This document shows, piece after piece, positions 2,642 through 14,827 of a stretch of DNA of 64,000 nucleotides (positions are counted from its first letter, which is position 1; the number at the start of each line of letters is the position of its first letter). Both the position numbers and the translations under genes were made by a program. This DNA is from Nitrosovibrio tenuis (GTDB taxonomy: Bacteria > Pseudomonadota > Gammaproteobacteria > Burkholderiales > Nitrosomonadaceae). The notes under the pieces were generated by a model, which saw only the letters and a program-made list of their open reading frames with translations, was not told the DNA's origin and did not search any database. Location of the stretch: positions 1 to 64,000 of the forward strand of contig NZ_FOBH01000004.1 of NCBI RefSeq assembly GCF_900109785.1, given 5' to 3'.

Positions 2642-3619
2642 TTACCGTCGTCGGACTACCTCAGGCGTCCGCTTCATTTCGCTGCACGATGCGCCGTATT
2701 TAAAGCAGCTATAGCAGCGGTGGTGTTTCATGCTCACGGGTGTTTGCAGGGCTTCCGTCAATGTTTCACCGACGACATAATCCGGATCGTCATCCACGAG
2801 AGTACAGGCGTAAACCTTCATGCAGTCCCCGCTTTTTGCCACCATTTTGCTGAATGCGCACATGAACGCGCGGCGGCTCTCTTCGGTTTGATAGCTCGTC
2901 ATGCAAGTTTCAGTGATTTGTGGGGTGGATACATGTATGCCTGGAGGATGAAATTCGGGAAATTCCACCCGAGCAAGATCCGCAGGTAACCCTGCTCTTT
3001 GGAAGATTTCGGCAAAGACCGCCGCAACAGCGGCCACATCGGCCGCCGTGCCCGGCGAGAGCTGGCTCGCGACCGAAACATGAAAGCCCATCTCATGCAA
3101 TTTTCGCAAGCCTGCCAGCGCACTGGCGAACATGCCCTCGCCACGCCCAGCGTCATGCCGTGCGGCCTCAGGATAATCAAGGCTAACGCGAAAACTCAGC
3201 GCGCATGCCCGGTTTTGCAACGGCTTCAATTGCTCGATACGCCTGATCAGCGGCTCAGTCGCATTGGTCAATACCAGGCAGGGTCTATGCTGCAACGCAT
3301 AATCGAGAATACGTATGATGTCCTTATTGATGAAAGGCTCGCCACCGGTAAAGGAAAATTGCTTGACCCCAAGAGCGAGTGCTTCATCGACGAAAGGAAT
3401 GGCATCTTGAAAACGCAGCAGTTGCAACCGATCGTCTCCCGGTTTCGAGCCTTCCAGGCAAAAAGGGCAAGCCAGGTTACAAGCGGTGCCAGTATGGAAC
3501 CATAGTTCATCCAACACATGCGGTTGAATAATGCCGCGCGGCTCCCCGCCCGGCAGCCGATACCAATCCTCGTGCCGATCAGGAAAAGGGCTGAAACGGC
3601 GGAGGGGTGCGCTGGTCAT
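2642..3619 (-). CDS. Radical SAM protein with SPASM-like C-terminal cysteines
   Basis: 325 residues. The radical SAM cluster motif is C47-x3-C51-x2-C54 (CNLACPFC), followed by a glycine-rich FTGGEPF motif that binds SAM in this superfamily. The last third has further cysteines, ending in CYSCFKYGASCSE at about residues 302-312. This fits an auxiliary Fe-S cluster of the SPASM or twitch kind. It lies 41 bp after the ArsM-like gene and 10 bp or more before the flavoprotein, all on one strand, so co-transcription is likely. It does not look like ArsS, the usual arsenosugar radical SAM enzyme, and it lacks the RCCLKC motif described for ArsL. The reaction is unknown. The ribosome site is weak. 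Confidence 0.8.
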   Translation of the reverse strand: MTSAPLRRFSPFPDRHEDWYRLPGGEPRGIIQPHVLDELWFHTGTACNLACPFCLEGSKPGDDRLQLLRFQDAIPFVDEALALGVKQFSFTGGEPFINKDIIRILDYALQHRPCLVLTNATEPLIRRIEQLKPLQNRACALSFRVSLDYPEAARHDAGRGEGMFASALAGLRKLHEMGFHVSVASQLSPGTAADVAAVAAVFAEIFQRAGLPADLARVEFPEFHPPGIHVSTPQITETCMTSYQTEESRRAFMCAFSKMVAKSGDCMKVYACTLVDDDPDYVVGETLTEALQTPVSMKHHRCYSCFKYGASCSEMKRTPEVVRRR

Positions 3620-3660
3620 GGGAATGAGCCTATGATACCCCTTCGCATCCCTTGCTCATG

Positions 3661-4713
3661 CTAGCAGCACCCGCCTGCACGTTTGTCGGCAATATCATGG
3701 GTAGAGTCATCATAAGGCAGCCCCATACCGCAGCCGGGGAAAATACCATAGTGCCGCTCGAAGTTGCCATAAAAATCGAAATGCGCGGCAAGTCGGGTAT
3801 CGTGCAGCATGCGCCAGGTGTTTCCGCACACAGGGAAATGTTTGCCGGCTTCCATGCGATGATGCTTGTCGAGCACAAACACGTGGGGATGATTCGGTAC
3901 CGTGCCGCGGTAAACCACGGCTTGACCATAGTCTTCACAAGCCGGCTCCAGATTACCCAGCTTGAACAGCCGGTAGGTGGCCGAATAAAAACGGATGTTT
4001 CCCGTCCGCGTGGCAAGTTCCGCGTCCACGTTAATTCTTCGGTCGTCAACCAAGCGTGGGTCGGCAAAACCGTGCTCGCGGGAAAGCTGGAGGAAATCGT
4101 TCCAATATAATGCACCACTCAGACATTCGCCGTACAGCACCGGATCGCGAGTCAATGGTTCAGGTACGCGGCGGTCAGTATACACATCGGAAAAATACAG
4201 TTCACCGCCCGGCCTGAGGACGCGCCACGCTTCATTCAGTACCGACGCCTTGTCGGGAGCGAGGTTGAGTACGCAATTGGACACAATAACATCCACGCTT
4301 GCATCGGCTAATTCGAGTTCCGAGAGGCGCTCAATATAGCCGTGCATGAAGCGCACGTTGCTTGCAGCGTAACCAAAGGCTTTACGGTGATAATCCTCGT
4401 GCCGGCGTGCGACAGCCAGCTGCTCTTCCGTCATGTCGACCCCAATTACCCGGCCTTGCTCCCCCACCAGTTTTGATAAAACAAAAATATCGCGTCCGGC
4501 TCCACAGCCAAGATCAAGCACAGTCAGGCCTTCCAGGGCTTCCGGCAGAACCAGGCCACAGCCGTAGTATCGAGCCAAAACCTCATTGTGTACCTGAGCC
4601 AATATGGGTTTGACATATGCGGGCAAACCGGCGTCAGTCTTGCAGGCGCTGGTCTGGAGATCGAGCGAGCTACCCAGGATTTCGCCATAGTACTTCTGAA
4701 CAGTGTCATGCAT
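3661..4713 (-). CDS. arsM: Arsenite S-adenosylmethyltransferase (ArsM family) with Cys-rich tail
   Basis: 350 residues. A SAM-dependent methyltransferase fold with motif I DLGCGAGRD at 67-75. Cysteines C24, C52 (YYGCGL), C147 (SNCVLNL) and C197 (YGECLSGALYW) have the same mutual spacing as the four conserved cysteines of algal ArsM (28, 95 and 50 residues apart). Three of those bind As(III) in the family. ArsM methylates arsenite stepwise and makes the precursor of arsenosugars and other organoarsenicals. Beyond about residue 258 comes a roughly 90-residue extension with C259, C296, C328 and a terminal GGCC, not needed for plain ArsM. The ATG has a good ribosome site (GAGGTAA). The gene follows the two transferase genes. 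Confidence 0.88.
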   Translation of the reverse strand: MHDTVQKYYGEILGSSLDLQTSACKTDAGLPAYVKPILAQVHNEVLARYYGCGLVLPEALEGLTVLDLGCGAGRDIFVLSKLVGEQGRVIGVDMTEEQLAVARRHEDYHRKAFGYAASNVRFMHGYIERLSELELADASVDVIVSNCVLNLAPDKASVLNEAWRVLRPGGELYFSDVYTDRRVPEPLTRDPVLYGECLSGALYWNDFLQLSREHGFADPRLVDDRRINVDAELATRTGNIRFYSATYRLFKLGNLEPACEDYGQAVVYRGTVPNHPHVFVLDKHHRMEAGKHFPVCGNTWRMLHDTRLAAHFDFYGNFERHYGIFPGCGMGLPYDDSTHDIADKRAGGCC

Positions 4714-4733
4714 GGAGTTACCTCATGATTGGT

Positions 4734-5435
4734 TTAAGTTGTCCTTTTGGAGCGGTAGCGTGCTGCCAGCCTGTCAGGTTCGACTCCACGCGCAAAAGCC
4801 AACGCGAGATTGCGATTCACCCACGTACGACGCCACCATCCGTCACGATGCCAGCGGCGGGGATCGATAAAAAGCGGTTCGCGTAAAGATTGAAAACGCC
4901 CCAGGCGGCGCAGGCCGCGTACCAGCGCTACTTCTTCAAACAATGGCCAGGGCGAATGGCCGCCTGCCTCGATGTAAGCCCGCCGGGTCATGAACAGCCC
5001 TTGGTCGCCATAAGGGACACCGATCCGGCAACGGAGGGCGATAGCAGGCTCCAGTAATAATGCGGGCCATGCGCGCGGTGCATCAAAACGGAAACGAAAG
5101 TAGCCGCCTACCATATCGCGTTCGAAAGCGCGCTCCATTGCCATTAAAGGATTTGGCGGCAGCCGGACGTCCGCATGCAGGAACCATAACGCATCACCTC
5201 GTGCCAGCGCCGCGCCAGCCCGTAATTGGCGCCCGCGGCAAGGTTCGCCGGGCACCCAGAGTGCACCGTATCGATGGCAAACTTGGCTGCATTTCTGGTC
5301 GCCAGCACCGTCTGCCACGATAATCTCCAGCGGCGCCCGGGAGGTGCTATGGGGCAGCTTTCGCAATTGATCGAGCAGGTTCGCCAATTTTCCCTCGTCT
5401 CGATAGCAGGGAATGATTATGCTAAAACTGGACAT
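4734..5435 (-). CDS. Family 2 glycosyltransferase, rSAM/selenodomain-associated transferase 2 type
   Basis: 233 residues. It begins SSFSIIIPCYRDE, the usual first strand of GT-A glycosyltransferases. LEIIVADGAGD follows, then FLHADVRLP, a DxD-like position, and GDQGLF later. This matches the group named rSAM/selenodomain-associated transferase 2 (TIGR04283), found beside radical SAM and arsenosugar genes. It probably moves an activated sugar or a related group onto a small acceptor, but the substrate is unknown. The ATG at 5435 has GGGGAA seven bases upstream. It overlaps the end of the preceding gene by 14 bp, which points to translational coupling. Confidence 0.85.
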   Translation of the reverse strand: MSSFSIIIPCYRDEGKLANLLDQLRKLPHSTSRAPLEIIVADGAGDQKCSQVCHRYGALWVPGEPCRGRQLRAGAALARGDALWFLHADVRLPPNPLMAMERAFERDMVGGYFRFRFDAPRAWPALLLEPAIALRCRIGVPYGDQGLFMTRRAYIEAGGHSPWPLFEEVALVRGLRRLGRFQSLREPLFIDPRRWHRDGWWRRTWVNRNLALAFARGVEPDRLAARYRSKRTT

Positions 5436-6177
5436 GATCCGTTTCCCCGAGCTGCACAATGTGGCTCGCCAATTCATGCAGCGCCCGTCGCGCCGGTCGC
5501 CGGTCGTGGCTCAGTGAAGTGATCAGCCGTACGAGATCGTCTGCCTCATCCACGTCAAACCCATGTGTCAGAGTCGACACCGATTGGCCGGCATCATGGC
5601 AGCAGTCCGCCAGCGCGATACCCAAATGGGGCGTGCTCCACGGCAAACCACCCAGCGGCGGCCAATGCTTGCGGCTCGCCATCAACACCACACCGCCATC
5701 CAATGACGGCATCAATACGGTATCGTGATATTCCATGGCCTCACTCGCTGCTGCGTAATCGGCTGCTTCGAGTGCGGGTGCATCGCTGCCGATATAGACC
5801 AGCTCTTCCAGTCCCGCGGCGCGCAATTTGCGATCCAATATGTTCAGCCGCTGTCCCAGATTCCCCGCTGACTGGGGCTCTACGCGCGTTTTGGGATGTA
5901 CTCCCGGCAACAGAGCCTCGGCCCAGGCATAATCCCCCGCATGCGCAGGAGCGATGACCACCGGACCGGACCAGACATGCGTGTCTTCCAAAGCACAGGC
6001 AAGCAGTGCTTCGGCAACACGGCTTGCCGCCATCCGGCCCAAACTTGCGGCCAGCCGTTGCTTGCCGATCCCTAATCCCGGTCGCTTGCAAACCAGCACC
6101 AGCGCCGCTTCAATCATGTCGGTTGTTATTGATTCCGCCGCCACAGACTGCATGAGCCGTTCATGAGGTTCTCTCAT
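5422..6177 (-). CDS. CofC-like nucleotidyltransferase, rSAM/selenodomain-associated transferase 1 type
   Basis: 251 residues. The order of motifs, ALVLVCKRPGLGIGKQRL near the N-terminus and then YIGSDAPAL and PSLDGGVVL, is that of the TIGR04282 group. This is a nucleotidyltransferase-like family related to CofC and MobA. The typical family start has K-x-P-x-x-G-x-x-K-T-R, and here it reads CKRPGLGIGKQRL, a slight drift. It is the first gene of the minus-strand cluster that runs to the VTT-flavoprotein. Its ATG follows AAAGGAAAC, a good ribosome site. By context it probably activates or transfers a group in building an organoarsenic or selenium-linked small molecule, an inference only. Confidence 0.82.
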   Translation of the reverse strand: MREPHERLMQSVAAESITTDMIEAALVLVCKRPGLGIGKQRLAASLGRMAASRVAEALLACALEDTHVWSGPVVIAPAHAGDYAWAEALLPGVHPKTRVEPQSAGNLGQRLNILDRKLRAAGLEELVYIGSDAPALEAADYAAASEAMEYHDTVLMPSLDGGVVLMASRKHWPPLGGLPWSTPHLGIALADCCHDAGQSVSTLTHGFDVDEADDLVRLITSLSHDRRPARRALHELASHIVQLGETDHVQF

Positions 6178-6530: not shown

Positions 6531-8381
6531 TTAAATGAGACCCTGCCTCTGCCTGTACCATTGTTCAAGCATCATCAGCACCCACACCATGGTGCCGTGA
6601 TAACCCGCATGCTCGCCCAGATGCTGTTCGAGCAGCTTATCGATAAATCGAGTATTGATGATGTGCCGCGACTTGAGATCATTTAAGCTGTCAAACGCCA
6701 GAGCCTGCAACGGTTTATGGTGTTGAAGCCATACGCCGAAGGGAAGACCGAAGCCATGTTTCTGTTTGCCGATGATTTCATCCGGCAAGAACCCTCGCAG
6801 CGCTTCCTTGAAGAAATAACGCAACTTTGTGCCTTTAAGTTTGAGTTGGGGTTCGAGTTGCAAGGAAAAATCTACGATTTCATCGCTTATCAGCGGATAC
6901 GCCACATCCATCCCAGCCAATTCGCACGCCTTGCTCACTTTCGGGAGGTCATTGTCGGCAAGGGTGAATTTTCGATCAAAAGCCAGCATGCGATTGATCA
7001 AGCTCTTGGCGCTGCTCTGATGATAAATATCGCTTAACAATTCGGCCGGATAGCCCGGATCGACCGTTTCAAGGAATTCCTGGGTAAAAACCGCCCTGGC
7101 GCCATAATGCTCCAGCAGATTATAAGTTTCCGTTCGCGCGGGCATCTCTATCGATGCCTGTTCCACATAACTGCGGGCCTTGCGCATCAATGGCAACGCA
7201 GCCCCACCGGGAATGCCTAAAACCACAGGCTCGATAACTGCCTTGCGCAGCAACGCAGGAATTTGTTCATACAAAGAGAAAAGATGCTGTTTGGCATAGC
7301 GTGTATTGCCCCCGAATAATTCATCTCCTCCATCGCCGCCCAGCATCCTGTTCAGGCCATCGGCTTTCGCCATGCGCGCACAATAGAAAGCCGGTATGGC
7401 GGAAGAATTACCGAAAGGTTGATCGAAGATCGCCGCCACCTGAGGGATGGCTGCCACAATATCATCGGGAGTGACATAATACTCCTGATGCCGCGTACCA
7501 AAATGTTTCGCTGCGATACGCGCGTATGCCATTTCGTCATAACCCGAGGCATCAAAACCGATGGAATACGTCCGTGCCGGCTGGCCCGTCACTTCGCCAA
7601 GTATTCCCGCGATCGTCGAGCTATCTGTGCCTCCGCTGAGAAAGGTTCCAACCTTCTGATCCCCGGCAGCCTCGCGCACGCTGGAGCGCAATACCCCTAG
7701 AAAACCCTCCTTGAGTTCCTGAAAGGGTCGTCTCTCACCTTCGAGGAAGCGCATTTCCCAATACCTGCGGGTCTCAACCCGTCCCTTCCGATAAATCAGA
7801 TATTCACCAGGGAGAAGACGGGCCTGTTCCCTATAAATGGTCCCGGGACCGGGCACCATATGAAAATAGATATAGTTGTAGAGGCTTTGCGGCGCGATTT
7901 CAGGTCTTATCAATGGGTGCATAAGGATAGCGTCCGCCGCTGAGCCGAAAACCAGTGCTCGCCCGGATAGCTGGAAGGCAACCGGGTACGTTCCCATGCG
8001 GTCGGTTGCCAGGACAGCCTCATCAGTGTCTTCGTTCAAGATACAAAATGAAAATGCTCCAGCCAGACTCGAAAAGGCTTTTTCGCCTCGGGTCCGCCAA
8101 TCGTCAGCGAGTGTTTTCGCGACGCCCTGGCTCAGTGCGAGCTGGGCTAGCTGCGACTCGAGAAAATTGGGCCGCCCGCATATGGCAACAATAAGGCCGT
8201 CCTTTTGATAGAGATGCCTGCTACCGTCTCCCGCCGCGATTGCGAGCGCGCTTTCCATCCCGGCCAATGGTTCCATGTGGCTGCCATCGAAACGGGAAAG
8301 CGGCCCGGCCATCTGCCGGACAAGCCGCAGGTTTTCGGAAGCAGAGATACTGTGGCCTATCCAGCCGCAAAACCCACTCAA
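6531..8381 (-). CDS. Asparagine-synthetase-like amide ligase with altered glutaminase domain
   Basis: 616 residues. The C-terminal synthetase domain is intact, with PP-loop LSGGTDSS at about 248-255 and LGGDGGDELFGG further on, as in AsnB-type ATP-pyrophosphatases. The N-terminal class II amidotransferase domain is abnormal. The start reads MSGFCGW, so the cysteine is residue 5 instead of residue 2, and the usual NGEIYN segment reads CGRPNF. It may use ammonia or another amine donor, as beta-lactam synthetase-type relatives do, or may need trimming to expose Cys5. The start is TTG, with GAGG seven bases upstream and no nearby ATG. It is the last gene of the exosortase-A-type run and presumably modifies the exopolysaccharide or its precursor. 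Confidence 0.85.
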   Translation of the reverse strand: MSGFCGWIGHSISASENLRLVRQMAGPLSRFDGSHMEPLAGMESALAIAAGDGSRHLYQKDGLIVAICGRPNFLESQLAQLALSQGVAKTLADDWRTRGEKAFSSLAGAFSFCILNEDTDEAVLATDRMGTYPVAFQLSGRALVFGSAADAILMHPLIRPEIAPQSLYNYIYFHMVPGPGTIYREQARLLPGEYLIYRKGRVETRRYWEMRFLEGERRPFQELKEGFLGVLRSSVREAAGDQKVGTFLSGGTDSSTIAGILGEVTGQPARTYSIGFDASGYDEMAYARIAAKHFGTRHQEYYVTPDDIVAAIPQVAAIFDQPFGNSSAIPAFYCARMAKADGLNRMLGGDGGDELFGGNTRYAKQHLFSLYEQIPALLRKAVIEPVVLGIPGGAALPLMRKARSYVEQASIEMPARTETYNLLEHYGARAVFTQEFLETVDPGYPAELLSDIYHQSSAKSLINRMLAFDRKFTLADNDLPKVSKACELAGMDVAYPLISDEIVDFSLQLEPQLKLKGTKLRYFFKEALRGFLPDEIIGKQKHGFGLPFGVWLQHHKPLQALAFDSLNDLKSRHIINTRFIDKLLEQHLGEHAGYHGTMVWVLMMLEQWYRQRQGLI

Positions 8382-8509
8382 AATAGTGCCTCGGTTTTTT
8401 TTAACATCAGCGTTCCATTGATAGCTTCGAAACAGTCGTGCTTGTGATCCAGATGGACCCGTCCCCGAACCTCGGGCAATACCAAGGCAGCAAGCAGTAT
8501 TATGCTCAA

Positions 8510-9745
8510 CTAGACCAATACTTCAACAGGAGGCGGGTGGCTGAGAAACGCCGTTGGGCTCGCAGTAAGACCATACGCGCCGGACTGAAAAACGACAATC
8601 AAATCTCCTGCTTCTGCCTGGCTCATTTCCATCTGATCCGCAAGAAGATCCAGGGGGGTGCACAGCGGCCCAACGACCGAAACAATTTCTCTTGCGTTGC
8701 CGCGAACTTTGGTGCCGACGACTACGGGGTAATTCTTGCGAATGACCTGGCCAAAATTCCCGGACGCAGCGAGGTGGTGATGCAGCCCCCCATCCGTTAC
8801 AAGAAATATCTTTTCCCTCGATTTCTTTCGCTCCAGTACGCGGCAAACATAAATGCCAGCCTCTGCAACGAGATAACGTCCGAGTTCAATGACCACGCGT
8901 GCTTGCGGTAGCTGCCGCTTTGCTTCCGGCAGCAAGCATCGCAAGTTTTCCCCGACGGCCCCCAGGTCCAATGGCTCATCGCCGGGGAAATAGGGTACGC
9001 CGAAACCACCGCCAATATTTAGCAAACGAACTGCGCCAGGCGCATGTTGCGCGAGCGCAATGCCAAGTTGAATGGTTTTCTCGTGGGATTCCTGAATAGC
9101 CGCCACCTTCAGGTTTTGCGAACCGCTGAAGATATGGAACCCTTCGAAGTCGAGTCCAAGTCTACCTATCCGCCCGAGCATGGAGGGAACCTGCTCCGCA
9201 TCAACACCAAACTGTTTTGCGCCGCCGCCCATCTTCATACCGGAGGATTTCAGCTCAAAATCCGGGTTGACGCGAACCGCGACTTTCGGGCGAATGCCGA
9301 GGCGATCGGCCAGACAGGCTATACGCTCCATCTCCTGTTCGGACTCCATGTTCACCACAATACCTGCGGCAATGGCGCAGGAAAGCTCATCATCACTCTT
9401 CCCCGGCCCGGCGAAACTGATGTGTTCCGGCGATATGGGCGTGTCGAGCGCAATTTTCATCTCTCCGCCGGACGCCACATCTACTCCATCCACCAAGCCG
9501 GCCATATGCTGCACTATGGCGGGCATAGGGTTCGCCTTCATTGCATAGTGGAGGTGAATCTCTTCGGGAAGATGCCGGCGCAGAAAAGCGACACGGTCAG
9601 TGATAAGCTGTCTGTCATAAGCGTAAAAGGGTGTTCTGCCTATTCGCTGCGCCAACCGCGGGAGCGCGAACCCTCCGACCTGCAGGCAGTCGTCGCGCAC
9701 CGGAAATTGAGTCACAGGGACATGCTTGGGACGAATATTACTCAT
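8510..9745 (-). CDS. PLP-dependent decarboxylase, exosortase A system-associated
   Basis: 411 residues from the ATG at 9745. It is a fold-type III (alanine-racemase-like) decarboxylase related to diaminopimelate and ornithine decarboxylases. The PLP lysine is expected at K70 in HYAMKANP. HIFSGSQN, NIGGGFGVPY and the C-terminal GAYG segment are present. The family paired with an acyl-CoA ligase in XrtA/PEP-CTERM loci is TIGR03099. The chosen start overlaps the stop of the acyl-CoA ligase by 8 bp, while a longer frame up to 9844 would overlap it by over 100 bp. Its true substrate in exopolysaccharide synthesis is not known. Confidence 0.9.
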   Translation of the reverse strand: MSNIRPKHVPVTQFPVRDDCLQVGGFALPRLAQRIGRTPFYAYDRQLITDRVAFLRRHLPEEIHLHYAMKANPMPAIVQHMAGLVDGVDVASGGEMKIALDTPISPEHISFAGPGKSDDELSCAIAAGIVVNMESEQEMERIACLADRLGIRPKVAVRVNPDFELKSSGMKMGGGAKQFGVDAEQVPSMLGRIGRLGLDFEGFHIFSGSQNLKVAAIQESHEKTIQLGIALAQHAPGAVRLLNIGGGFGVPYFPGDEPLDLGAVGENLRCLLPEAKRQLPQARVVIELGRYLVAEAGIYVCRVLERKKSREKIFLVTDGGLHHHLAASGNFGQVIRKNYPVVVGTKVRGNAREIVSVVGPLCTPLDLLADQMEMSQAEAGDLIVVFQSGAYGLTASPTAFLSHPPPVEVLV

Positions 9746-11327
9746 GCGCCGGTTCTCTGAAGGCATTTTGCAGTTCTTGGCCGAGAAGCTTCCGATCAAT
9801 CTTGCCATTGGGGTTGCGTGGCAGGTTTCCTTGCCTGAATTCAATGCGGCTGGGCAGCATGAAAGCAGGGAGGTGAAGCTTGCAGGCGGCGAGCAATACC
9901 TCCTGATCCAGACTCGTACCCGCCCGCGGTACCGCGATCACGATGATGGCTTGACCCAGCACGGGATGGGGAACTCCGATTGCAGCAGCCTCTGCCACAA
10001 GTTCCGTGGCGTAAATCACTTCCTCGACCTCCATCGGGCTCACTCGATAACCGGACGTCTTGATCATTTCATCGCGGCGGCCGATGAAATACAAGAAGCC
10101 CTCCTCATCCATACGTACGGTATCACCTGACCAAACGGCCAATTCCGGGATTGTGAGGCCTAGTTCGTGCGAAAGAACGGGCTTGAAACGCTCCGCCGTT
10201 TTTTCATGGTCATTCCAATACCCCATGGATACGAGAACCCCGCGATGCACGAGTTCTCCCGGTTCGCCGGCGGCGCAGGGTGAGCCATCCTCCCGTACCA
10301 CGAGAACTTCCGCATTGGGAATTGCCTTGCCTATGGAGTCGGGGCGAATTTCTACCTGCTCAGGAGGCAGAAAGGTCGAGCGAAACGCCTCGGTAAGACC
10401 ATACATCAGAAATACGGCAGTGTCGGGAAGATTGCTGCGCAACAGATCGAGTGTCGCGCGAGGCATCGCCCCCCCGGAATTTGTGATATACCGTAGTGGA
10501 ATGGCGCTTGGCCACTTCAATTGAGCCAGCTGAATCCATAACGGAGGCACCGCGGCCAAGCCTGTGATCTTCTCCTCCTCAAGCACATTCAGGATGTCCC
10601 GGGGCAGAAGATAGTTCATCAGGATGCCGGCAGCTCCGACACGAAATGCCGTAGTAAGCTGGTTAAGGCCATAGTCAAAACTCAGCGGAAGTACCGACAG
10701 AATCCGATCCTCAGGATTATTTTTTAAATATTGGGCCACGCTTGCCGCGCCCGCCGTGAGATTGCGATGAGAAAGGACTACGCCTTTTGGTTTGCCAGTG
10801 CTTCCGGAAGTGTAAAGGATGGCCGCCATGTCGCCGTCGATACGGCGATGCACTCCAAACTCTTCCGCTTGAGACAACGCGTCCTTCCATGATATGACGT
10901 TCAAATTCGCCACCACCGGCAGCGCCTCTGCTGGGCTTACCACTATAACCGTGCGCAAATCATGACATTGCGGCAAAACCGGGGCGAGCAGCCTTAACCG
11001 CTCGGCCGACGTCACCAGAATTCTAACGTTACAGTCCCGAAGAATATAGGCTACCTGTTCAGGTTTGAGGAGGGGATTGATTGGTACGAAGACACCTCCC
11101 GCAGCCGCAGCACCGAACAGGGCAATAACAGTTTCCGGGCGTTTTTCAAGGTAGACGCCTGCACGCTCACCCCGGTCAAGCCCTAAAGCGAGCATGGACT
11201 GCTCAATTGAACGGACCTCCTGAGCCAGCACGGAATAACTTATGCGGCTTCTCCCATACACCAACGCTTCCGCGTCTGGGAAACGATCAGCAGACTTAAG
11301 AATGAGCTCGTGGACAAGATCTGCCAT
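9738..11327 (-). CDS. Acyl-CoA ligase (AMP-forming), exosortase A system-associated
   Basis: 529 residues of the ANL adenylating superfamily. The phosphate loop YTSGSTGKPKG is at about 172-182, SGDTVRMDEEGFLYFIGRRD in the A7-A8 hinge, and the catalytic lysine near 509 in NPNGKIDRK. It matches the ligase that accompanies the PLP decarboxylase in XrtA loci (TIGR03098). There it is thought to activate an acyl or aminoacyl group for a carrier protein. That carrier gene is not next to it here. The gene sits 26 bp after prsR and overlaps the decarboxylase. The ribosome site is weak, so coupling to upstream genes is likely. Confidence 0.92.
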   Translation of the reverse strand: MADLVHELILKSADRFPDAEALVYGRSRISYSVLAQEVRSIEQSMLALGLDRGERAGVYLEKRPETVIALFGAAAAGGVFVPINPLLKPEQVAYILRDCNVRILVTSAERLRLLAPVLPQCHDLRTVIVVSPAEALPVVANLNVISWKDALSQAEEFGVHRRIDGDMAAILYTSGSTGKPKGVVLSHRNLTAGAASVAQYLKNNPEDRILSVLPLSFDYGLNQLTTAFRVGAAGILMNYLLPRDILNVLEEEKITGLAAVPPLWIQLAQLKWPSAIPLRYITNSGGAMPRATLDLLRSNLPDTAVFLMYGLTEAFRSTFLPPEQVEIRPDSIGKAIPNAEVLVVREDGSPCAAGEPGELVHRGVLVSMGYWNDHEKTAERFKPVLSHELGLTIPELAVWSGDTVRMDEEGFLYFIGRRDEMIKTSGYRVSPMEVEEVIYATELVAEAAAIGVPHPVLGQAIIVIAVPRAGTSLDQEVLLAACKLHLPAFMLPSRIEFRQGNLPRNPNGKIDRKLLGQELQNAFREPAHE

Positions 11328-11353
11328 TTAATAACGTAAACCTCAAAAATTAA

Positions 11354-12706
11354 CTATTTTATTCGGTGACGGTTCATCAAGTCGTAAATGGTGGGACGGC
11401 TGACGCCCAGCAATTCCGCCGCCTTCACAACGTTACCGTCGACTCTTGCCAGCGCTTTCATCAACGCATCATATTCAGCCTTGTCGCGTACCTGGCGCAG
11501 ATTAATTGGTTCTGCCTCAACGGTTGAACCCTGTAAACCGAGGTCTTCCGCGCTTATCAGGGGCCCATCAGCCATGATGACGGCCCGTTTGATGCAATTT
11601 TCCATTTCGCGCACATTACCTGGCCATGTATGGCTTTCAATGGCGGCAATCGCCTCCTTGCTGAAATTGAGTACCGAACGTTTTTCCTGGGTGCAAAATT
11701 TATTCTTGAAGTGATGCGCAAGCAATGCCGCATCACCGATTCGGTCTCGCAAGGGCGGTATCGTGATCACGATTTCGCTCAGGCGATAATAGAGGTCCTC
11801 CCGGAAGCGGCCTTCTTCGATCAGCTTCTTCAGATTCTGATGTGTTGCACATACGACACGCACATCAACCGGTATTTCCTTACGTCCCCCGATTCTTTCA
11901 ATCACTCTTTCCTGCAAGAAACGGAGGAGCTTTGCCTGCAATGCCATTGGTAAATCACCCACCTCATCAAGGAAAAAAGTCCCTTCATGGGCAAGTTCAA
12001 TTTTACCTGGAGTCTGCTTGACCGCTCCGGTATAGGCTCCTTTTTCATATCCAAACAGCTCACTTTCCAAAAGTGCTTCCGGAATAGCGGCACAGTTGAT
12101 CGCCAAAAAGCGTTTTTCTCTTCTGGCGCTGGATTGGTGCAGAGTTCTCGCAAGAATTTCCTTACCCGTACCGCTTTCGCCCAACACTATAACGCTAGCA
12201 TCGGATGGCGCAACTTTTTCTATATTGCGGCATACTTTGACCAGGGCGGGATCGCGGGTAATGATACCGCTTATGGACGAGTATGCCTGAGCTTGCACCA
12301 ATCTGCGGTTCTCCTGTTGCAATGAGTGCAAATAGAACGCTCTCTCTACTACCAAGCCCAGCATTTCTGGGTCACAAGGTTTTTGATGAAAATCGTACGC
12401 TCCCGCGCCGATAGCCTTCAATGCATGACCATGATCCTGATTACCGGTCAAAACAATTACCTTGGTATCGGGCGCGAGCTCAAGTAACTGCTCCAGCGTG
12501 GCCAACCCCTCCGAAGCACCATCCGGGTCGGGCGGGAGCCCTAAATCCATAGTGACAACCGCCGGCTCATGTCGCCTGGCCAAGGCAAGCGCGCCTTCAC
12601 GGTCGCTTGCCACCAATACTTCATAAGCGTCGAAGCTCCAGCGTAGCTGCCTCTGCAATCCGGGATCATCTTCGATGACTAACAGAACCCTTTTATCCTG
12701 ACTCAC
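11354..12706 (-). CDS. prsR: PEP-CTERM-box response regulator PrsR (sigma-54 activator)
   Basis: 450 residues from a GTG at 12706 that has AGAGGA just upstream. A TTG further up at 12733 has no such site. Three domains follow in order: a receiver with phosphoacceptor D54 in TMDLGLPP, an AAA+ sigma-54 interaction domain with Walker A GESGTGKE, and a Fis-type helix-turn-helix ending SRPTIYDLMNRHRIK. The sigma-54 contact loop reads GAYTGA where most members have GAFTGA. PrsR is known to activate sigma-54 promoters of PEP-CTERM protein genes upon signal from PrsK. It directly follows prsK (36 bp gap). Confidence 0.93.
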   Translation of the reverse strand: MSQDKRVLLVIEDDPGLQRQLRWSFDAYEVLVASDREGALALARRHEPAVVTMDLGLPPDPDGASEGLATLEQLLELAPDTKVIVLTGNQDHGHALKAIGAGAYDFHQKPCDPEMLGLVVERAFYLHSLQQENRRLVQAQAYSSISGIITRDPALVKVCRNIEKVAPSDASVIVLGESGTGKEILARTLHQSSARREKRFLAINCAAIPEALLESELFGYEKGAYTGAVKQTPGKIELAHEGTFFLDEVGDLPMALQAKLLRFLQERVIERIGGRKEIPVDVRVVCATHQNLKKLIEEGRFREDLYYRLSEIVITIPPLRDRIGDAALLAHHFKNKFCTQEKRSVLNFSKEAIAAIESHTWPGNVREMENCIKRAVIMADGPLISAEDLGLQGSTVEAEPINLRQVRDKAEYDALMKALARVDGNVVKAAELLGVSRPTIYDLMNRHRIK

Positions 12707-12742
12707 TTGATTCCTCTTACATTGCCTGCTCAAATTTATTCA

Positions 12743-14827
12743 TCAACCGGTCCTTTGCGCACCAGTCTGCCGGTTCGGATGAAGAGGCAGAACGATGCGA
12801 AAAACCGTGCCATCGTACTTACTGCTGGTTACTTCCATTTGTCCGCCCAGCTCGAATACATATTCCCTGCTTTCGAAAACGCCTATACCCATACCCGCCG
12901 ATTTAGTGGACTCGAACGGCTTGAAAAGTTTATCTCTGATAAACTCATCGCTCATCCCGTGCCCAGTATCCTTTATTTCAACGATGGCAAAATCATTCTT
13001 CCTTTTCAGCCGAACCCAGACTTGACCGTTACGGCTTGTGGCTTCGATTGCGTTCTGAATGAGATGCCCCATAACGCGTTCAAGACGTGATGAGTTCGCA
13101 TACACTTCGAGGTTTGAATCCTGTATTTCCAGAGTTGGCTTGGGCTCGACAATGGATTTGCTCTTTACTGCTTCCTGCAGCAGTCGCGCGAGTAAAAGAG
13201 GAGCCGGCCTTTCCGGCGAACTTGCCGTGCTTAATTTCTCCAGCAACCGTTTCATTTTTTGAACGGACAGATATACCGTCTCAACCATATCGCGCTGAAA
13301 TTCCGGATTTTTCTGGTGTTTTTCGGCATTGGAAAGCAGTAGCGATAACTGAGAAACGAGATTCTTCAAATCATGCACGACGAACGTCGACATACGGTTA
13401 AACGATTCAAACTGACGCGCCACCATTAGCGCATTGGCCGCCTCGTGCTGTGCCAAATAGCTGGCTGCCTGATTACCCGCAACTTTGAGAAGATCACTGA
13501 CTTCCCAGTTCAACTTTAGTTTGCTTCTGGGTTGTGCCAGCACCACAAATCCGAATAATGTTCGATGCTGAATCAGCGGTATCACCAGCCATGCTTTTGG
13601 TAGGGCCTGCAACCATTGAGGCAGAGTAACGCCCGGGTATTTTTCAGGGTTCGACGCATATTCCTCCAGATCGATCACCCACTCCTTGTGTTCCAAAAAT
13701 TGGCAGAACGAGCTGTTAACGGCCTCAAACCCGTCCACTGAAGGCATATTCCAATGTGATACAGGTTCACATTTGCCTGATTCACGGCTTATCCACAGTC
13801 CACCGCCAGGACTTTCCACGAGTTGGGCCAAAGCCTGGATAACCCGCTCCTCCAATCCATGTCCACCCTCTGAAAGAGTGCGTGTAAAGCGCAGCCATTC
13901 TTCGCGGTAGTCGTAGTTGTAGCTAAAAAAATGCTTGCTGATGAAAACCCTGAGCCAAGAGCGCAACGTGCCCGAAAACAGCACAGCCAATAACAGAATG
14001 ATGGCGCCGAACAGGAACGTCACCTGCATGACCGTGCCCCAGCTTCCGCCAAAAAAACGAAGGTAGTATCCTGCGCCGGCCATGGCCAGTAAATAGGCGG
14101 CGGCGCCAAACAATGCTGCGGAATAGAAGAGAATCCGACGCGATACAGTGAGGCCGATGGACCATTGAGGATTGCGCGCAGCCGACACTGCGACAAGCGG
14201 AACAACAAGCGCGTTAACGATTCCCCGCGCCGCCCATATCTCCGGGTTTATATGCCTGAGCAGTAAGGCGTCACTATATAAGTAAAAATCATAAGCGAAG
14301 ATACTGCCTATGCCGAGGCAGGCGAATTTTATTCCCCAACGGTGTTTGGCCGGCGTGTTCCGGTAAAGCTGCTCCACCAGAATCATGCCAGTGAGCGCCA
14401 TAGCCAGACTTCCTAAAATATTGTTAGAAAAATCAAGCGCATCATGGCGTAAAAAACCAAAGTTTCCATGGGAGTAGAAGGCCAGCAAGAAACATGCAAT
14501 GTAGAGGGCTGCGATCAGGATCACGACCGGACTGACCCTCGCGGCAAAAGACGGGCCTCCTTGTCGGTATAACCCCAGCAGTGTGATGAGAAAAACCGAC
14601 CAGCCTGCGTTTCTGAGAATTTCCAGAATATCAGTTAAAAGCGAAAGAGGAAGGACATCGGTGACGCGATAGGCGAGCACCGCCGCCCATAGCGCAGAAA
14701 AAAGGCAGGCAGCAGGCAATACCAATCCATGCGAACGACTGCGCCAACTGGTCAGCAACAGCGTCGCCAAAAAAAAATGTGCCACAGCCGCCATGGTATA
14801 GCTGACTGTCGCAATGCCCGTCAACAT
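12743..14827 (-). CDS. prsK: PEP-CTERM system sensor histidine kinase PrsK
   Basis: 694 residues. The first 290 or so carry eight or more hydrophobic segments. A GAF-like region follows, then a dimerisation helix with the phosphate-accepting histidine in FVVHDLKNLVSQ. The ATPase has N box HLIQNAIEATS, G1 DTGHGMS and G2 GMGIGVF. This domain order is that of TIGR02916. It should autophosphorylate in response to an unknown envelope or exopolysaccharide signal and pass the phosphate to PrsR. The ATG at 14827 follows a 190 bp gap after the sugar transferase gene. Confidence 0.93.
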   Translation of the reverse strand: MLTGIATVSYTMAAVAHFFLATLLLTSWRSRSHGLVLPAACLFSALWAAVLAYRVTDVLPLSLLTDILEILRNAGWSVFLITLLGLYRQGGPSFAARVSPVVILIAALYIACFLLAFYSHGNFGFLRHDALDFSNNILGSLAMALTGMILVEQLYRNTPAKHRWGIKFACLGIGSIFAYDFYLYSDALLLRHINPEIWAARGIVNALVVPLVAVSAARNPQWSIGLTVSRRILFYSAALFGAAAYLLAMAGAGYYLRFFGGSWGTVMQVTFLFGAIILLLAVLFSGTLRSWLRVFISKHFFSYNYDYREEWLRFTRTLSEGGHGLEERVIQALAQLVESPGGGLWISRESGKCEPVSHWNMPSVDGFEAVNSSFCQFLEHKEWVIDLEEYASNPEKYPGVTLPQWLQALPKAWLVIPLIQHRTLFGFVVLAQPRSKLKLNWEVSDLLKVAGNQAASYLAQHEAANALMVARQFESFNRMSTFVVHDLKNLVSQLSLLLSNAEKHQKNPEFQRDMVETVYLSVQKMKRLLEKLSTASSPERPAPLLLARLLQEAVKSKSIVEPKPTLEIQDSNLEVYANSSRLERVMGHLIQNAIEATSRNGQVWVRLKRKNDFAIVEIKDTGHGMSDEFIRDKLFKPFESTKSAGMGIGVFESREYVFELGGQMEVTSSKYDGTVFRIVLPLHPNRQTGAQRTG

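Follow-up and report, generated by a model that had tools for sequence, protein, structure and literature searches.

A radical SAM family distinct from ArsS in a putative arsenosugar-type gene cluster of Nitrosovibrio tenuis and its relatives

The first 64,000 nucleotides of contig NZ_FOBH01000004.1 of Nitrosovibrio tenuis (Nitrosomonadaceae; RefSeq assembly GCF_900109785.1), referred to here as the window, carry close to their beginning five minus-strand genes. To judge from sequence comparisons, these probably form an arsenosugar-type biosynthesis operon in which ArsS, the named arsenosugar radical S-adenosylmethionine (SAM) gene in NCBI's annotation library, is replaced by a member of another radical SAM family. 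In the order of transcription, the genes encode a TIGR04282-like protein of 251 amino acids, of the CofC/DUF2064-type nucleotidyl- or glycosyltransferase-like kind (positions 5422-6177; TIGR04282, PF09837), a TIGR04283 family 2 glycosyltransferase of 247 amino acids (4734-5477), an ArsM-like arsenic methyltransferase of 350 amino acids (3661-4713), a radical SAM protein of 325 amino acids from a family without a name, proposed here as a stand-in for ArsS (2642-3619; PF04055), and a protein of 728 amino acids in which a VTT-domain membrane part is fused to a flavin adenine dinucleotide (FAD)-dependent pyridine nucleotide-disulfide oxidoreductase (445-2631; PF09335, PF07992 and PF02852), hereafter the VTT-reductase. 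An initial annotation of positions 2642-6177, made from the sequence alone, had described the first four genes as tightly packed on one strand, and they are: when the first ATG of each is taken, the TIGR04282-like and TIGR04283 reading frames overlap by 56 bases, and gaps of 20 and 41 bases separate the glycosyltransferase, ArsM-like and radical SAM genes. The VTT-reductase gene, which lies beyond that interval and follows the radical SAM gene after 10 bases, belongs with the other four. A scan of the cluster for promoters and terminators gave matches no more numerous than in shuffled sequence, so that a single transcript is proposed from gene spacing alone.

The partner genes differ in how well they fit curated profiles. 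The TIGR04282-like protein scores 107 bits, below the cut-off of 134, yet it aligns with the complete profile (1-189 of 189). The TIGR04283 glycosyltransferase exceeds its cut-off (186.8 against 182 bits) and is the sole match to this profile in its own genome at E values up to 1e-25. The ArsM-like protein, assigned from its NF008823 match, four cysteines and an ArsM tree, lies under all three curated cut-offs (NF008823, 181.6 against 263 bits; NF040538, 147.5 against 500; NF038099, 87 against 400), the last of which was exceeded in none of the 75 genomes tested. Its cysteines C24, C52, C147 and C197, which we take to be the four of the ArsM family that the initial annotation had noted, are invariant in all 65 aligned relatives, and the protein also has a C-terminal Cys-Cys. 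A thioinosine/thioadenosine-type phosphorylase is encoded elsewhere in the genome (C22:400351; 392.2 bits, cut-off 223).

The radical SAM family and its conserved cysteines

The radical SAM protein matches PF04055 at 59.4 bits (cut-off 29.5), and the motif C47-x3-C51-x2-C54 noted in the initial annotation is present, together with six later cysteines at positions 239, 254, 272, 302, 305 and 312. All nine occur together in 39 of 41 aligned proteins, and they are complete in every row of two further alignments (15/15 and 45/45). The two exceptions, L104 and L105, each lack five of the nine, and L104, the one of the pair that was scored, exceeds the cut-off of the Rv1681 family (NF049973). For these reasons both were taken as members of another family, and their genomes (G407 and G392, respectively) were left out of the phylum count, which fell from 39 matches to 37. 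The Rv1681-type genes at these two loci stand about 3-6 kb from weak TIGR04282/TIGR04283-like matches of 49-72 bits.

The initial annotation had set the radical SAM protein apart from ArsS, and the protein was placed in no known family: among the best 25 of 54 NCBIfam matches, it is over no cut-off, scoring 105.4 bits against 380 for the Rv1681 family and 41.1 against 300 for the ArsS model TIGR04167, the latter match covering the core only. No ArsS above the TIGR04167 cut-off was found in the window's genome, where a profile search gave 39.4 bits. Solved structures match the protein chiefly in its core, and no publication on the family was found in the literature searched, the coverage of which leaves out most subscription journals.

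Of the 125 genomes searched from the window's taxonomic family (Nitrosomonadaceae), 68 encode a member, as do 4 of 200 from its order (the N. tenuis genome included, and one at only 34% identity) and 37 of 398 sampled from its phylum. Named relatives occur, among others, in Nitrosovibrio, Nitrosomonas, Methylotenera, Marinobacterium, Amphritea, Marinobacter, Halomonas, Alcanivorax and Colwellia. On plasmid pHP-187 of Marinobacter adhaerens, a copy at about 9845-10988 of locus L067 is split over two frames with no listed gene and is probably a pseudogene. On a plasmid of Roseomonas, a PhnD-type phosphonate transporter is accompanied by two radical SAM genes (L068, 8562-13964). On one of Mycolicibacterium, a PhnD-type protein is encoded next to an Rv1681-family radical SAM gene, and a further radical SAM gene lies in the vicinity (L322, 946-2762). 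Kin of the radical SAM family may serve other pathways.

Partner genes shared with ArsS clusters

The neighbourhood of the radical SAM gene was compared in 20 loci of the window's taxonomic family, chosen from a longer list rather than drawn at random. The order TIGR04282-TIGR04283-ArsM-radical SAM is kept in 19 of them (the exception being L199), which argues that the arrangement is not due to chance. ArsM is present in all 20, TIGR04282 and TIGR04283 in 19 each, and a reductase match in 16; the locus without a full TIGR04283 gene keeps a remnant at 72 bits. A wider set of 80 loci from named organisms comprised the best 80 of a longer list, so that it leans towards near relatives and includes some genomes repeated elsewhere. 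At 56 of these loci, ArsM, TIGR04282, TIGR04283 or a methylthioadenosine (MTA) phosphorylase lies in the stretch; at 69, ArsM, TIGR04282, TIGR04283, MTA phosphorylase or the VTT-reductase lies within 600 bases. Within that distance of the radical SAM gene itself, the VTT-reductase is found at 32 loci and MTA phosphorylase at 8, representing 8 genera or groups, and ArsS was found in none of the 80 stretches. An ArsM with all four cysteines is part of the cluster in Nitrosomonadaceae, Methylophilaceae, several Gammaproteobacteria and some genomes of another class. The phylum sample contributed 37 loci from 36 of its 37 genomes (G409 is absent and G548 gives two), and a partner was seen in the fetched stretch for 15 of these, or for 10 if the VTT-reductase is not counted.

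For comparison, we examined ArsS loci, namely all 8 from the window's taxonomic family and 20 picked, not at random, from the phylum sample, in which 116 genomes have ArsS. In 6 of the 8, ArsS is accompanied by the VTT-reductase, TIGR04283, TIGR04282 and ArsM; of the other two, the first is short of the reductase half only, and the second comes from a contig of 4.6 kb. Among the 20 phylum loci, 13 contain ArsM, TIGR04282, TIGR04283 or MTA phosphorylase in the stretch and 7 are without these markers. MTA phosphorylase lies beside ArsS in 2 of the 20 (L168 and L169) and within the fetched stretch in 3. The partner set is thus the same for both cluster types, and it is the radical SAM gene that differs. 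In the ArsM tree, built by a quick method with SH-aLRT support only, a marked clade of 10 mixes 7 ArsS-linked proteins with 3 linked to the radical SAM family. FastTree trees required 5 label changes for the reductase and 3 for TIGR04283, counts that are weak given the long branches.

The two enzymes rarely share a genome. In the 398 phylum genomes, 37 carry the radical SAM family and 116 carry ArsS (114 over the cut-off), and none carries both. Among the 38 genomes that carry this ArsM clade, the radical SAM family occurs in 16, ArsS in 18, both in none and neither in 4, the last four being drafts 81-93% complete; Fisher's test for exclusion gives 2e-7 with kinship ignored. Within the window's taxonomic family, in which 68 of 125 genomes have the radical SAM family and 8 have ArsS, both occur together once against 4.4 expected (P 0.017, kinship again ignored). 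The genome concerned, G589, keeps a complete ArsS locus, while its radical SAM locus lacks TIGR04282 and has TIGR04283 reduced to its last 87 residues. The absence of the VTT-reductase from the latter locus means little, since it is also absent from L201, L203 and L204 of the same taxonomic family.

At the genome level, TIGR04283 accompanies the radical SAM family closely. The comparison set consisted of 37 genomes taken at even steps from the 220 that have neither enzyme and no member of the ArsM clade. At E values up to 1e-25, TIGR04283 was detected in 36 of 37 genomes with the radical SAM family versus 3 of 37 without it, and over the cut-off in 28 versus 2. In the window's taxonomic family, it exceeds the cut-off in all five tested genomes with either enzyme versus none of 14 with neither. 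The ArsM count in the comparison genomes (1/37) is biased by the way they were selected, and the table of 398 genomes was used instead.

Other genes were seen around these loci. At L081, L084, L089 and L093, all from another class, a gene resembling a short-chain dehydrogenase/thioester reductase stands beside TIGR04283, and it is possibly a further enzyme of the pathway. Three loci from a single genus of the window's class (L069, L073 and L074) have a sodium:solute symporter and ectoine-type genes after those for the VTT-reductase and the radical SAM protein, and ArsM was not found in the fetched stretch. The ectoine genes, like the pgi/pgl/zwf genes beside some relatives, were read as lineage-specific neighbours, and no functional meaning was assigned to them. 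Upstream of the cluster in the window (6531-14827) lie genes resembling an exosortase/PEP-CTERM polysaccharide locus, one of them for an amidotransferase of the asparagine-synthase type (TIGR03108; 284.7 bits, below the cut-off of 816.9), after which open reading frames resemble, by reading alone, a pyridoxal phosphate (PLP) decarboxylase, an acyl-CoA ligase, a response regulator and a histidine kinase.

Proposed role and its alternatives

The same partners around ArsS, the rare co-occurrence of the two enzymes and the MTA phosphorylase beside both in some loci make it the simplest reading that the same pathway is served by another radical SAM enzyme. The shared partners and the phosphorylase would also favour an adenosyl-arsenical that is later freed of adenine. 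The likeliest role of the N. tenuis protein would then be that of an ArsS stand-in, adding a 5'-deoxyadenosyl group to methylated arsenic en route to an arsenosugar, and on present evidence it seems to work like ArsS without being a member of that family. That a second radical SAM family forms the arsenic-adenosyl bond, having evolved separately from ArsS on a core like that of Rv1681 and taken its place in otherwise equal clusters, is a more tentative proposal, on which we lean slightly towards doubt.

The sequences show the genes with their order and conservation, the partners in common with ArsS clusters and the rarity of genomes with both enzymes; the reactions, arsenic as the substrate and the nature of the product are all inferred. 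ArsS is described in PMC12159101 as adenosylating arsenic. In the cluster studied here, the ArsM-like enzyme would convert arsenite to dimethylarsenite, and the radical SAM enzyme would cleave SAM by means of a [4Fe-4S] cluster at its CxxxCxxC motif and join the 5'-deoxyadenosyl group to arsenic, as ArsS does. A phosphorylase of the MTA/methylthioinosine (MTI) type, which adjoins the gene in some relatives and lies elsewhere in the window's genome, would remove adenine; TIGR04282 and TIGR04283 would activate and attach the aglycone or sugar; and the VTT-reductase might supply reductant or carry out a membrane step. The initial annotation had suggested a different organoarsenic product, a different sugar-donor route or a selenium/arsenic pathway. 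The first two are unsupported, as ArsS clusters share the partners and both enzymes are rarely in one genome, and the genes can be explained without a different product. Nor was there any sign of selenium in the two cases opened among the in-frame stops flagged by the genome searches: those of L002 (TAG) and L003 (TGA) were both terminal stops, and a selenoprotein reading was rejected.

Several observations weigh against an ArsS-like role. In the sequence of its core, the N. tenuis protein is closer to the Rv1681 family than it is to ArsS, which stands no nearer to it than MoaA does. DUF3641 (PF12345), which scores 184 bits in the one ArsS protein scanned, was not detected in the N. tenuis protein at E values up to 0.1. 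ArsS Cys132, part of a Ser-Leu-Pro-Cys motif, is invariant in all 16 aligned ArsS proteins, and the profile alignment places Tyr149 of the N. tenuis protein at its position. When only the C-terminal parts are compared by profile, the score of 21.5 is a weak signal, as 30 column shuffles reach up to 18.2. By the tests run, the protein is not a member of ArsS, since it falls short of TIGR04167 and lacks both DUF3641 and Cys132. Full homology with ArsS was considered on the strength of an alignment of 270 columns (98.0%) and rejected, because the core is no closer to ArsS than to MoaA and the C-terminal match is weak. At the level of loci, 22 of the 37 from the phylum sample show no partner in the stretch, mostly about 9 kb on each side, and these are a real limit on any claim of a constant link. 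ArsM was detected in 18 of 37 radical SAM family genomes versus 29 of 38 ArsS genomes (P 0.017), leaving 19 of the former without it. The initial annotation's link to arsM-type genes therefore stands as a repeated association with arsenosugar-type genes and not as a constant one. The threshold of 1e-25 also catches TIGR04283 paralogues: in the window's taxonomic family, 11 of 14 genomes that have neither enzyme contain one at 83-103 bits. The exclusion in the phylum sample is confounded by kinship, in that no taxonomic family holds both enzymes (the tally for ArsS covered 96 of 116 rows, the remaining 20 all falling in one further family, f79). Finally, in G589 matches to the radical SAM and ArsM genes still extend across almost all of each gene, so that a separate role is possible.

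Three other explanations were considered. Under one of them, the radical SAM protein would work with TIGR04282 and TIGR04283 on another 5'-deoxyadenosyl- or sugar-derived product unconnected with arsenic, ArsM having joined in some lineages only. TIGR04283 does track the radical SAM family (36/37) far better than ArsM does (18/37), and among 17 TIGR04283 regions from radical SAM family genomes without ArsM, TIGR04282 is present in 9 and ArsM in none. Many genomes of another class, probably Alphaproteobacteria, hold the radical SAM gene without nearby partners, and the neighbours of the Roseomonas relative are another radical SAM gene and an ABC transporter of the phosphonate type. Against this stand the breadth of lineages in which a four-cysteine ArsM lies in the cluster and the finding that ArsS, with its published arsenic role, has the same partners; moreover, ArsM went undetected in 9 of 38 ArsS genomes too. 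We regard a module without arsenic as unlikely.

Two further explanations, both of which we consider improbable, keep arsenic as the substrate. The enzyme might make a different organoarsenical, for example by a 3-amino-3-carboxypropyl transfer like that reported for ArsL (PMC8552651); from the chemistry in the same account, such cleavage would release MTA, to be salvaged by the MTA phosphorylase that neighbours the radical SAM gene in some loci. That phosphorylase adjoins ArsS as well, however, and the TIGR04282/TIGR04283 partners match those of ArsS clusters. No ArsL model is among the best 25 of 54 NCBIfam matches, and PMC8552651 gives ArsL three conserved cysteines (194, 198 and 201), probably for one cluster, versus nine in the present family. 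Alternatively, the protein could catalyse another step of the same pathway, such as modification of the sugar or aglycone, and would look like a substitute because ArsS and the radical SAM family occupy different lineages. The lack of any taxonomic family with both enzymes in the phylum sample fits such a view, as does the one genome of the window's taxonomic family that keeps both genes. ArsS would still be needed in that case, yet none of the 37 radical SAM family genomes of the phylum sample has it, and in the window's taxonomic family, where clusters of either type are found with one set of partners, the overlap is 1 versus 4.4 expected. Replacement of ArsS within an arsenosugar-type pathway remains the reading we favour.

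If the two enzymes perform the same step, a survey based on ArsS only would miss 37 of the 153 carriers in the phylum sample (37 plus 116, with none having both). Arsenosugar capacity would then reach ammonia oxidisers and many marine Gamma- and Alphaproteobacteria overlooked by an ArsS search, the ammonia oxidisers of Nitrosomonadaceae might make arsenosugars, and the family would add another way for radical SAM chemistry to build a carbon-arsenic bond.

Comparison with known systems

The ArsL gene of the arsinothricin cluster resembles the present gene in lying beside an arsM gene (PMC8552651). It differs in the cysteine layout of its product, and TIGR04282/TIGR04283 partners are not named in the passages of that account consulted. 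Of the radical SAM cores compared, that of the Rv1681 family comes closest in sequence to the N. tenuis protein. The latter scores far below the two true members examined (535.7 and 498.4 bits), and these lack the C-terminal cluster cysteines. Twitch/SPASM enzymes share with the N. tenuis protein C-terminal cysteines that resemble those of auxiliary clusters. The SPASM pattern has seven cysteines, and the six conserved in the C-terminal part here do not fit it.

ArsS, like the N. tenuis protein, has a radical SAM core with CxxxCxxC, from which the latter differs in its low TIGR04167 score, the lack of DUF3641, Tyr149 in place of Cys132 and an extra invariant Cys239. The initial annotation had read SPASM-like C-terminal cysteines as setting the protein apart from ArsS. 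Six such cysteines are indeed conserved, but the contrast is weak: the five C-terminal cysteines of ArsS follow one another as five of these six do, and at nearly equal spacings (C-x14-C-x36-C-x2-C-x7-C in ArsS and C-x17-C-x29-C-x2-C-x6-C here). The clusters themselves are alike in their ArsM, TIGR04282 and TIGR04283 genes. On the reading favoured here, the known arsenosugar pathway would operate in these clusters with a second type of radical SAM enzyme.

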